In this document: in pieces, positions 605-61,136 of the stretch
Layout: every line of letters begins with the position of its first letter
Numbering within the stretch: position 1 is the stretch's first letter
Assembly: GCA_913055805.1 (NCBI GenBank)
Contig: CAJXLF010000008.1
Span: 1-64,000 of the forward strand
Reading direction: 5' to 3'
Origin: an uncultured Salinisphaerales bacterium
GTDB lineage: Bacteria > Pseudomonadota > Gammaproteobacteria > Nevskiales > CAJXLF01
DNA: 64,000 nucleotides
Translations under genes and position numbers: made by a program
Notes under the pieces: generated by a model
Told to the model about the DNA's origin: nothing
The model's input: the letters and a program-made list of their open reading frames with translations, nothing else
Database searches by the model: none

Positions 605-701
605 GTCCTGCTCGAACGCAGTGACAAATCTGTATGGAACAGATTTGGTCAGTGAGCAAAGCGAACTGCCCTGAGGCGAAGCCGAGGGCGAGTATCAGGA
701 C
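605..701 (+). repeat. Structured spacer between 5S gene and its partial copy
   Basis: A closing stem GTCCTG/CAGGAC (605-610 with 696-701) encloses a perfect 9-bp hairpin (CAAATCTGT/ACAGATTTG, 625-647) and a nested hairpin (GCCCT-GGC-gaa-GCC-AGGGC, 668-689). No reading frame of interest is present. The design, several hairpins inside one closing stem, resembles a compact mobile or RNA element rather than random spacer. Similar multi-hairpin spacers occur beside tRNA-Thr (20620) and tRNA-Gln (61033). Confidence 0.55.
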
Positions 702-712
702 GATACGAGCAA

Positions 713-736
713 AGTAGGTCACCGCCAGGCTTTTAA
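713..736 (+). repeat. Partial copy of 5S rRNA 3' tail
   Basis: Twenty-four bases are identical to 525-548, that is the last part of the 5S gene plus five bases of its flank (TTTAA), at an offset of 188 bases. A second terminator follows. It is a remnant of a duplicated 5S end and is too short to form a 5S molecule. Confidence 0.9.
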
Positions 737-20551: not shown

Positions 20552-20580
20552 TTGATCCGGCCTGCCTGCGGCTCTAGAAT
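20552..20580 (+). promoter_or_regulatory. Sigma-70 promoter of the tRNA-Thr region
   Basis: TTGATC (20552-20557), a 17-base spacer and TAGAAT (20575-20580) make a strong sigma-70-type match. The GC-rich stretch GCCGCC right after the -10 is the discriminator type linked to stringent control of stable RNA genes. The first tRNA-like sequence begins 20 bases later, but it is the truncated tRNA copy at 20601, not the full gene. Confidence 0.75.
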
Positions 20581-20600
20581 GCCGCCTCCTCAAGAGGTAT

Positions 20601-20619
20601 GCCGGCGTAGCTCAGTTGG
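20601..20619 (+). pseudogene. Truncated 5' copy of tRNA-Thr
   Basis: Nineteen bases (GCCGGCGTAGCTCAGTTGG) are identical to the first 19 bases of the full tRNA-Thr at 20743: acceptor strand, D-stem and half of the D-loop. The match then stops abruptly. It sits at the expected distance from the promoter at 20552, so it looks like the original 5' end, with the structured spacer following it. Confidence 0.88.
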
Positions 20620-20742
20620 GCGAAGTGGTTAAAAGCAAAGCACGGCTTTGCGCCGCAGAGCGACGCGATATGGAAGTCGCGGCTGGTGGTTGGAGGAGTG
20701 CGGGTGCGACGCCATGGATGGCGGCTGTCAAGTTTCTTATGT
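20620..20742 (+). repeat. Structured spacer inside the tRNA-Thr transcription unit
   Basis: A 123-base segment separates the truncated tRNA copy from the intact tRNA-Thr. It contains three hairpins: GCAAAGC-acg-GCTTTGC (20635-20651), GCGAC/GTCGC (20660-20680) and CGCCAT-gg-ATGGCG (20710-20723). The last resembles the CGCCAT-gg-ATGGCG hairpin beside tRNA-Gln at 61096. No coding frame is evident. It would be transcribed with the tRNA. Confidence 0.6.
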
Positions 20743-20796
<54 letters not shown>

Positions 20797-20818
<22 letters not shown>

Positions 20819-21100
20819 GCTTTTTCGACCCCCCGGACTTTTGCGGTCGTTCAGGGGCATCGCAAGGCTGCGACCTGTCGCAGGTTATTCGGCCCGTCCC
20901 TGGGCCTCACCCTTCGGGCTCCCTGCGGTCGTTCGATTTTGTTCCGGACAAAATCGTCGACTCCTGTCGCCGGCTCCAGCTTTTTCGACCCCCCGGACTT
21001 TTGCGATCGTTCAGGGGCATCGCAAGGCTGCGACCTGTCGCAGGTTATTTGGCCCGTCCCTGGGCCTCACCCTTCGGGCTCCCTTCTGACGCTCGATTTT
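20797..21100 (+). repeat. Two 160-bp tandem repeats, each starting with tRNA-Thr 3' end
   Basis: The unit starting at 20797 is repeated from 20957 with period 160. Each copy begins with the last 22 bases of tRNA-Thr, T-arm half through CCA. The copies differ at two positions over about 128 bases and then diverge near 20925/21085, and the second copy fades near 21100. Each unit holds hairpins (GCGACCTGTCGC; GGCCC/GGGCC), and the first ends in a perfect 9-bp hairpin (CGATTTTGT/ACAAAATCG, 20934-20956). The 178-bp repeats after E. coli tyrT have the same plan. Confidence 0.92.
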
Positions 21101-21229
21101 TGTCCAGGCCGGCTTGCCGTGAGGGCGCTTGGTCTGCTGTTTTTGCCGCTGGTGGCAGGCGAAAGGCGTTTATTGATTGCCACAGAGTAAAAAATACGGT
21201 TGAAATCAGTATTTTTCGCGGAAATGCGG

Positions 21230-21258
21230 TTGACATGAGGGGCGCATTTCACAACAAT
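21230..21258 (+). promoter_or_regulatory. Sigma-70 promoter before tRNA-Tyr
   Basis: A perfect -35 box TTGACA (21230-21235) is followed after 17 bases by AACAAT (21253-21258) as -10. A GC-rich discriminator (ACGCGGC) precedes the likely start about 12 bases before tRNA-Tyr. It would drive tRNA-Tyr, tRNA-Gly, tRNA-Thr and tuf independently of the upstream tRNA-Thr promoter. Confidence 0.7.
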
Positions 21259-21277
21259 ACGCGGCTTGCATTTTCCC

Positions 21278-21362
21278 GGTGGGGTACCCAAGCGGTCAAC
21301 GGGATCAGACTGTAAATCTGACGGCTCAGCCTTCGTAGGTTCGAATCCTACCCCCACCACCA
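21278..21362 (+). tRNA. tRNA-Tyr (anticodon GTA)
   Basis: An 85-base class II tRNA with a long variable arm. Acceptor GGTGGGG pairs with CCCCACC, the anticodon loop is CTGTAAA with GTA, the T-loop is GTTCGAATC, and CCA is encoded. It corresponds to tyrU of the E. coli tufB operon. Confidence 0.97.
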
Positions 21363-21706: not shown

Positions 21707-22897
21707 ATGTCCAAAGAGAAGTTTGAACGCACGAAGCCGCATGTAAATGTGGGGACGATTGGTCACGTGGACCATGGTAAGACGACGCTGACGGCGGCGC
21801 TGACTGTGGTGCAGGGTAAGAAGTTTGGTGGTGAGTCGAAGGCTTACGACCAGATTGACAATGCGCCGGAGGAGAAGGCGCGTGGTATTACGATTGCCAC
21901 GGCGCACGTGGAATACGAGAGTGACGCACGTCACTACGCGCACGTGGACTGCCCGGGCCATGCGGACTACGTGAAGAACATGATCACGGGTGCGGCGCAG
22001 ATGGACGGTGCGATTCTGGTATGTAGTGCGGCCGACGGCCCCATGCCGCAGACGCGCGAGCACATTCTGCTGGCCCGCCAGGTGGGCGTGCCCTACATTG
22101 TCGTGTTCCTGAACAAGGCCGACATGGTAGACGACGCCGAGCTGCTGGAGCTGGTGGAAATGGAAGTGCGTGATCTGCTGAGCAGCTACGACTTCCCGGG
22201 TGACGACACCCCGATTATTGTGGGTTCTGCCCTGAAGGCGCTGGAAGGCGACGAGAGCGAAATTGGCAGCCAGGCGATTGACAAGCTGGTCGAAGCGCTG
22301 GACACCTACATCCCCGAGCCGGAACGCGCCATTGACGGTGCCTTCTTGATGCCGGTGGAAGACGTGTTCTCCATCTCCGGTCGCGGCACCGTGGCTACGG
22401 GTCGTGTGGAGCGTGGTGTGGTGAACGTGGGCGACGAAATTGAAATCGTCGGTATCAAGGACACTGCCAAGACCACCGTGACCGGTGTGGAAATGTTCCG
22501 CAAGCTGCTGGATCAGGGTCAGGCGGGTGACAACGTGGGCATTCTGCTGCGTGGCACCAAGCGTGAAGAGATTGAGCGTGGTCAGGTGCTGGCCAAGCCG
22601 GGCAGCATTACCCCGCACACCAAGTTTGAGTGTGAGGTGTACATCCTGAAGAAAGAAGAAGGTGGGCGTCATACCCCGTTCTTCAAGGGCTACCGCCCGC
22701 AGTTCTACTTCCGCACCACGGACGTGACGGGTGCCTGTGAGTTGCCGGATGGCACCGAGATGGTGATGCCGGGTGACAACGTCAACCTGAAGGTTGAGCT
22801 GATTGCGCCGATCGCGATGGAAGAAGGCTTGCGCTTCGCCATCCGCGAAGGTGGCCGTACCGTCGGCGCCGGCGTCGTCGCCAAGATTATCGAGTAA
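21707..22897 (+). CDS. tuf: Elongation factor Tu
   Basis: A 396-residue GTPase that delivers aminoacyl-tRNA to the ribosome. G-motifs: [10 protein letters not shown] (P-loop), [12 protein letters not shown] (switch I), DCPGHADYV (G3), [10 protein letters not shown] (G4) and SALKALEG (G5). Full family length. Upstream neighbours are those of tufB (tRNAs), while the downstream neighbour, rpsJ after 28 bases, is that of tufA. The gene is thus a hybrid junction between the two usual tuf sites (see findings). Codon use is strongly biased, as in highly expressed genes. Confidence 0.98.
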
Positions 22898-22925
22898 GGC
22901 CTGAGGCTTCATCGGAGTTAGGAAT

Positions 22926-23240
22926 ATGTCCGCCAGTCAGAACATCCGCATTCGTCTCAAGGCTTTCGATCATCGCCTGATCGACAAGTCTGCCCGCGAA
23001 ATCGTGCAGACCGCCAAGCGCACAGGCGCTCAGGTGAAGGGCCCGATTCCGCTGCCGACGAAGAAGGAAAAGTTCACCATCCTGATCTCGCCGCATGTGA
23101 ACAAGGATGCGCGCGATCAGTATGAAATTCGCACCCACCGCCGCCTGATGGACATTGTGGAGCCTACCGAAAAAACGGTAGATGCCCTGATGAAGCTTGA
23201 TCTGGCAGCAGGTGTCGACGTACAGATCAAGTTGCAGTAA
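22926..23240 (+). CDS. rpsJ: 30S ribosomal protein S10 (NusJ/NusE)
   Basis: A 104-residue protein with [14 protein letters not shown] at the N-terminus and [25 protein letters not shown] at the end, both characteristic of S10. It binds the 30S head and also joins NusB in transcription antitermination. ATG preceded by GGAGTTAGGAAT. First gene of the S10 cluster. An unusually long 116-base gap separates it from rplC. Confidence 0.98.
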
Positions 23241-42495: not shown

Positions 42496-42685
42496 ATCCA
42501 CAGATTACACAGATTACACAGATTAAATCGGAGAAATGTCATTCCGCACATGAGGCAAAGCCTCGTGATGCGAAATCCACGGGCACTGACGTCAGGCGCA
42601 TGTGGATTCCGGACAAATTCCTCCGGAATTTTCCGGAATGACGAATCTTACAAACAAATCTGTGTCATCTGTGTAATCTGTGGAT
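42496..42685. repeat. 190-bp nested inverted-repeat element
   Basis: 29-base outer arms (42496-42524 and 42657-42685) match as inverted repeats with one mismatch. Each arm is itself built of ATTACACAG-type short repeats. Inside are further dyads: GTCATTCCG/CGGAATGAC (42538/42634), AATCCAC/GTGGATT around a TGACGTCA palindrome (about 42574-42608), and CCGGAATTTTCCGG. No reading frame. The form is that of a non-autonomous MITE-like or REP-like element placed between convergent genes, and it may also act as a terminator for both. Confidence 0.85.
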
Positions 42686-60911: not shown

Positions 60912-60985
60912 TGGGGGTTCGTCTAATGGTAGGACTGCGGACTCTGACTCCGCCAGTGGGGGTTCGAATCCCTCACCCCCAGCCA
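60912..60985 (+). tRNA. tRNA-Gln (anticodon CTG)
   Basis: A 74-base cloverleaf with encoded CCA. Acceptor TGGGGGT pairs with ACCCCCA, with the weak U1-A72 pair typical of tRNA-Gln. The anticodon loop CTCTGAC contains CTG, and the T-loop is GTTCGAATC. Flanked by rpsI and by a terminator. Confidence 0.95.
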
Positions 60986-61032: not shown

Positions 61033-61126
61033 GGAGGAGGGTGAGACCCCAACGCGGGGTTCGATTAACAATCACAGGGATGTGATTGTTAATGAGCGCC
61101 ATGGATGGCGCGAGTAATCCCTCTCC
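61033..61126 (+). repeat. Cloverleaf-like structured spacer after tRNA-Gln
   Basis: A closing stem (GGAGGAGGG at 61033-61041 with CCCTCTCC at 61119-61126, one bulge) encloses three perfect hairpins: ACCCC-aacgc-GGGGT (61046-61060), a 12-bp stem TTAACAATCACA/TGTGATTGTTAA with GGGA loop (61065-61092) and GCGCCAT-gg-ATGGCGC (61096-61111). The 3' strand of the closing stem is part of the partial tRNA-Gln copy. No coding frame. Confidence 0.65.
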
Positions 61127-61136
61127 CCCAGCCAAA
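61116..61136 (+). repeat. Partial copy of tRNA-Gln 3' end
   Basis: Twenty of 21 bases match 60967-60987: the T-loop exit, the acceptor 3' strand, CCA and two flanking A. The offset is 149 bases. A second terminator follows, as at the 5S locus. Confidence 0.85.

Follow-up and report, generated by a model that had tools for sequence, protein, structure and literature searches.

A palindromic element in the T-loop of copied tRNA 3′ ends and the rtT-type repeat behind tRNA-Thr of an uncultured Salinisphaerales bacterium

A 160 bp tandem repeat carries the 3′ end of tRNA-Thr(UGU)

The window analysed here is a 64,000 nt stretch of the genome of an uncultured Salinisphaerales bacterium (assembly GCA_913055805.1, contig CAJXLF010000008.1, positions 1 to 64,000) in which an intact tRNA-Thr(UGU) gene is followed by a tandem repeat, tRNA-Tyr and, further on, tuf (Table 1). 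TRF reported a sole array there, at 20797-21100, with a period of 160, 1.9 copies, zero indels and a score of 566, and a repeat search of the window returned copies at 20797-20945 and 20957-21105, spaced by 160 bases and 95% identical; the two methods thus agree with a first-pass annotation of this DNA, which had proposed two units with an exact period of 160 bases. Alignment of the units confirmed its further statements that both open with the last 22 bases of tRNA-Thr (TCGACTCCTGTCGCCGGCTCCA), CCA included, and that there are exactly two mismatches between them over the first 128 bases. Beyond these 128 bases unit 2 diverges and breaks off within its insert. The first TCGACTCCTGTCGCCGGCTCCA is supplied by the gene itself, so the array contributes one extra tRNA-Thr 3′ end, and the number of units may be a minimum in this draft assembly. 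The tail had also been described as hairpin-rich, which the folding energies bear out modestly (z = -2.0 for 20819-20956 and z = -1.4 for 20819-20978) and no further.

We also noted a duplication on the 5′ side of the gene, where the first 19 bases of tRNA-Thr recur 142 bases upstream within a 20-nt exact repeat. The approximately 120 nt that follow this copy hold palindromes such as CGCCATGGATGGCG, read by eye, and together the fragment and the following sequence look like a degenerate reverse copy, in the D-loop, of the element described below, a reading left unsupported by covariance models R1 and R2, which gave no match at the upstream copy.

Table 1. Coordinates, strand and supporting evidence of the features discussed in the window.
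Feature	Position	Strand	Evidence
Element E, reverse, behind 5S rRNA gene	621-714	-	R1 30.4 bits, E=1.4e-7; R2 41.2 bits, E=6.7e-7
5S rRNA 3′-end copy, AGTAGGTCACCGCCAGGCTTTTA, 23 nt (original 525-547)	713-735	+	Sequence; 5S 427-542 by Rfam
tRNA-Thr 5′ end, upstream copy (19 bases plus one)	20600-20619	+	20-nt exact repeat (with 20742-20761)
Intact tRNA-Thr(UGU) gene	20743-20818	+	ARAGORN; Rfam tRNA 70.2 bits
Repeat unit 1: tRNA 3′ end, spacer, T-stem palindrome, E	20797-20956	+	Repeat search, TRF, unit alignment
hp0 palindrome TGCGAC-CT-GTCGCA, then GGTT; T-stem 5′-strand copy plus inverted repeat	20869-20886	+	Sequence
Element E, complete	20887-20956	+	R1 match 20883-20960, 94.3 bits (R1 partly built from the same copy)
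Parts of E: hp1; CCCTTCGGG; hp3	20891-20906; 20910-20918; 20934-20956	+	Within complete Thr E
Extra tRNA-Thr 3′ end with CCA	20957-20978	+	22/22 identical
Repeat unit 2, truncated	20979-21105	+	Repeat search, unit alignment
Element E, second Thr copy, 3′ part lost	21043-21096	+	R1 55.5 bits; R2 49.4 bits
Element E, reverse, behind tRNA-Gln(CUG) (60912-60985)	61061-61119	-	R1 29.6 bits, E=2.6e-7; R2 26.8 bits
tRNA-Gln(CUG) 3′ end, extra copy	61114-61134	+	18/21 identical

Tails with the same insert across the genome

A downstream search at all tRNA loci of the genome found an extra copy of the gene's own 3′ end behind 11 of 43 tRNA genes (Thr-UGU, Phe, Gly-CCC, Lys-CUU, Gln-UUG, Gln-CUG, Leu-UAA, Leu-GAG, Arg-CCG, Val-GAC and Ser-GGA); by our own estimate, the chance of a 17/21 match within about 400 bases is roughly 1/20,000. 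In the tails an element of approximately 70 nt that they share, here called E, interrupts the copied 3′ end at the T-loop (GGTT^CGA). Covariance model R1, which was built from seven copies from this genome only, including the Thr copy and no E. coli sequence, identified E behind eight of these eleven genes (Thr, Phe, Gly, Lys, Leu-UAA, Ser-GGA and both Gln) and also at tRNA-Asn, next to an eroded 3′ copy. A BLAST search of the whole genome with the Thr unit, which is independent of R1, hit two other places, behind tRNA-Phe and tRNA-Gly(CCC). The 5S rRNA gene of the window likewise has an rtT-like tail (gene and tail together at 427-760), with a second terminator-like hairpin after the 3′-end copy. 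A 5S-like junction of similar kind was seen in another family (L386).

Anatomy and orientation of element E

In the tails the copied tRNA sequence opens with 7-14 nt of the T-stem 5′ strand, ending in GGTT, is interrupted by E and resumes with CGANTCC...CCA of the same tRNA. E itself comprises A(C/T)TC, hairpin 1 (of the GGCC-RTCCNT-GGCC type), CCCTTCGGG, a variable hairpin and hairpin 3, the loop of which is TCC(C/G)G. Among the R1 matches that were read with their flanks, 56 loci have E immediately next to a tRNA 3′ half that is 80% or more identical; the loci analysed were taken from the best-scoring model matches. The T-stem 5′-strand copy is often palindromic with an inverted repeat of its own, and such hp0-type hairpins occur at 15 of the 56 loci against 1.7 expected.

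Behind both tRNA-Gln genes E is reversed, giving GGTTCGA...GAGTAATCC. Reverse E was found at 15 of 26 loci with a CGAATCC T-loop, in which TTCGAA is palindromic, and at 1 of 30 loci with other T-loops (Fisher p = 9e-6), so that the reverse orientation is almost confined to palindromic TTCGAA, which fits a DNA target that is read directionally. The stems are 96.8% paired and contain 570 double changes against 154 in shuffles, counts that come from a model-fitted alignment and thus lean towards structure. G-U pairs make up 1.4% of E stem pairs and 5.8% of those in the tRNA stems of this genome, a rarity that may partly reflect the model used for collection and that suggests DNA palindromes rather than RNA stems. 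Template switching can keep palindromes symmetric without selection.

E also occurs as a plain insertion in copies of tRNA genes, in the T-loop of a tRNA-Glu pseudogene (L037, 1505-1650) just upstream of an intact tRNA-Glu(CUC) and in the D arm of a 5′ copy of tRNA-Ser. The possibility that E is a chance feature of base composition was excluded by the model E-values and the BLAST matches.

Distribution among other genomes

Within the order R1 matched 45 of 61 genomes, with up to 36 matches per genome, and model R2 gave matches in 127 of 274 genomes from the class and in 56 of 200 from the phylum, another class included. A pattern scan of named genomes revealed tRNA-linked cases in, among others, Rheinheimera (Arg), Phytobacter (Tyr), Amphritea (Ser, three units), Thioalkalivibrio (Ser), Alteromonas (Lys) and Salinisphaera (Arg). 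Only 13 of the 87 pattern matches were tRNA-linked under a strict test, and E therefore occurs elsewhere too. Several genomes contain many near-identical dispersed copies. In one relative (G002; L117, L122, L123, L124 and L131), inverted pairs of E-like palindromes 136 bp apart lie within a dispersed repeat of MITE-like kind with TTGGAATGACC-like inverted ends. The orientation rule, the paired stem changes with few G-U pairs and the existence of dispersed copies and plain insertions together point to a palindromic element that acts at the DNA level.

In several genera we also observed E between shared flanks, ATATCGCGGAAAGYTACTCG ... TTTGTCATGCCG, loosely conserved at some sites (L179, L184, L186, L192 and L193); these sites are away from tRNAs and apparently near the end of a protein gene. 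A different tandem repeat within a tRNA operon was seen between tRNA-His and tRNA-Lys (L011, 1693-1925), where two near-identical units carry the hairpin GGTACATGGAAGTACC.

Relationship to the rtT repeats of E. coli

The tyrT/rtT repeats of E. coli have long stood out as odd and, to our knowledge, have no accepted origin. At tyrT-tyrV of strain MG1655 the reverse arrangement, GGTTCGA...CCCGAAGGG...GAGTAATCCTTCCCCCACCACCA, is present in the spacer as well as in all three tail repeats, and R1 finds all four tyrT/tyrV repeats, with E in reverse and E-values of 1e-5 to 1e-3. The first-pass annotation had likened the Thr array to the plan of the tyrT locus, and the 160-bp units behind tRNA-Thr with its 3′ end bear this out; its judgement that the repeat sequence looked unrelated to that of E. 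coli proved wrong, as the tyrT/tyrV insert is the same element in the opposite orientation. The same judgement is countered by the Rfam RtT model (RF00391), which matches a sister tail in this genome, the reverse-oriented tail of tRNA-Gln(UUG), at 55.6 bits (cut-off 45). Elsewhere RtT matched Tyr and Ser tRNA tails above the cut-off and Lys and Arg tails just below it. The Thr tail lies outside RF00391, with no RtT match on either strand of 20560-21280 at E up to 1, and tRNA was the sole match in an Rfam search of this tail; the model apparently misses it because the insert is turned round.

The Thr tail shares with rtT (RttR) the tandem units behind a tRNA, a T-loop-to-CCA end in each unit and a palindromic insert between the T-arm halves, here as tandem units with one extra 22-nt tRNA 3′ end and a truncated second unit, and R1 together with the BLAST matches to the Phe and Gly tails identifies the insert as the one in E. 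coli tyrT. It differs from rtT in the orientation of the insert, the absence of a match to the Rfam model and the host tRNA, which is Thr, whereas small-RNA processing and an RNA product (RttR) are annotated only for the E. coli relative. By their shared organisation, the tyrT/rtT repeats of E. coli and the Thr tail are cases of one widespread bacterial pattern. Our search of the open-access literature found nothing on such tails beyond rtT that came closer than PMC4986893, PMC2965389 and PMC12306157.

Persistence and turnover of the tails

At 51 loci the copied 3′ half was 97% identical to that of the gene and the next 21 bases after CCA 70% identical (p = 4e-8). These next 21 bases had fallen below 60% identity at 22 loci, 20 of which nonetheless retain 85% or more of the 3′ half. 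This survival of the copied 3′ ends beyond that of their flanks suggests selection, gene conversion or a duplication with its end point at CCA. Within one genus, two species are unlike in the set of tRNAs that bear tails and in unit number, so tails come and go, and the variation in copy number among relatives that the first-pass annotation had proposed to look for was thus found. No clean pair of occupied and empty sites at base resolution was found, the empty sites within a genus having diverged too far.

Origin of the Thr tail

The Thr array is an rtT-type tail in which E lies in the T-loop of a tandem, truncated duplicate of the 3′ portion of the tRNA, immediately after the intact gene. 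We consider it probable that E is, or once was, a mobile palindrome of REP/MITE-like character that inserts at TTCGA in the conserved T-loop; an insertion into a single-copy tRNA gene would survive only where a partial duplication left an intact gene, and the tail would then grow by unequal exchange into tandem units of 140-185 bp. The plus strand between tRNA-Thr and tRNA-Tyr has no strong terminator-like site and a single weak match, at 21028, which makes co-transcription of the tail with tRNA-Thr probable, and the predicted cutting at each CCA would release RNAs of approximately 140-160 nt, by analogy with E. coli RttR.

REP/BIME and MITE-like repeats are short, palindromic, multicopy and mostly intergenic, and E resembles them in its dispersed near-identical copies in several genomes, but differs in its preference for the T-loop of tRNA copies with a duplicated 3′ end and in the lack of a clear correlation with Y1 transposases here. 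No mobilising enzyme emerged: the number of Y1 transposases, the candidate considered, correlated weakly with that of E across 61 genomes (rho 0.21, p 0.10), the genome studied here has one Y1_Tnp match, and of the nine E-richest genomes three have zero Y1 transposases. In the literature, rtT-like elements that lie upstream of several genes of enterobacteria are reported to be BIME members (PMC2965389), and rttR is listed as one of the REP-containing small RNAs (PMC12306157).

The near-identity of the Thr units and the truncation of the last are what ordinary slippage gives, and a passive local tandem duplication involving no special element was the null explanation offered in the first annotation. 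We find it hardly credible, since the same element occupies the same T-loop position behind many different tRNAs, across many families and also in E. coli, its orientation follows a rule and the 3′ halves are conserved beyond the spacer; the proportion of tRNA genes with tails and the excess of 3′-half over post-CCA identity disfavour it also. The stretch from T-loop to CCA of a tRNA is the classic attachment block of tyrosine integrases, found duplicated behind an intact tRNA as it is in the tails, and the tails could on that account be attR remnants of small or lost tyrosine-integrase islands. A relative (G003; L223 and L155) has a tyrosine-integrase-like gene, recognised by eye, directly after tRNA-Val(GAC) and, at a distance of about 9 kb, a 3′ end of tRNA-Val accompanied by E, a layout as if an island had entered between tRNA-Val and its tail. 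Such scars are nevertheless a quite improbable source, because the tails consist of units of about 140-185 bp without integrase, gene or cargo, share one conserved insert in both orientations across many tRNAs, and have counterparts behind 5S rRNA and on the tRNA 5′ side. The Thr unit matched 0 of 72,556 plasmid and 50,697 phage records, and no integrase is adjacent to the Thr repeat, the nearby ORFs of the window being birA-like, coaX-like and tuf only, as named by reading.

Selection for an RNA function also seems unlikely to explain the tails, if less so than island scars. Released RNAs that end in a tRNA 3′ end with CCA would act as small RNAs or sponges, or as decoys of tRNA-binding enzymes, in keeping with the retention of copied 3′ halves at the loci where adjacent bases have eroded and with the annotation of the E. 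coli relative as the small RNA RttR. In PMC4986893 a connection with amino-acid limitation and the stringent response is attributed to Bosl and Kersten (1991). Against this stand the occurrence of both insert orientations, which would yield RNAs wholly different in sequence, the avoidance of G-U pairs in the stems, the patchy presence of tails inside one genus and the fact that the unit folds only slightly better than shuffled sequence.

Insertion of a mobile palindrome into a duplicated tRNA end, which we prefer for the Thr array, may be one instance of something broader. We offer only tentatively the idea that E belongs to a class-wide family of palindromic DNA specialised for the T-loop of stable-RNA genes, which would duplicate the 3′ end including CCA on entry and be tolerated or kept because the copied ends would be of use, with E. 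coli rtT as one reverse-oriented member. The same insert at the same T-loop position behind many tRNAs and 5S rRNA, in both orientations as governed by the palindrome of the target, turns the rtT oddity into a testable class and opens the questions of what moves E, why the 3′ ends are kept and whether the tails affect tRNA output.

Gene order at tuf and a further repeat in the window

At 21707-23240 of the window, rpsJ-like and rplC-like genes come directly after tuf. The tRNA-Thr/Tyr/Gly/Thr genes usually stand ahead of the tufB copy, with secE-nusG-rpoBC-fusA intervening, and no rpoB domain was found anywhere in the assembly; the order from tuf to the rpsJ-like gene is probably an assembly join of two tuf copies, with the intervening segment lost. 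A 9-bp perfect repeat, present three times, was also seen at 42499-42525 (CACAGATTA).
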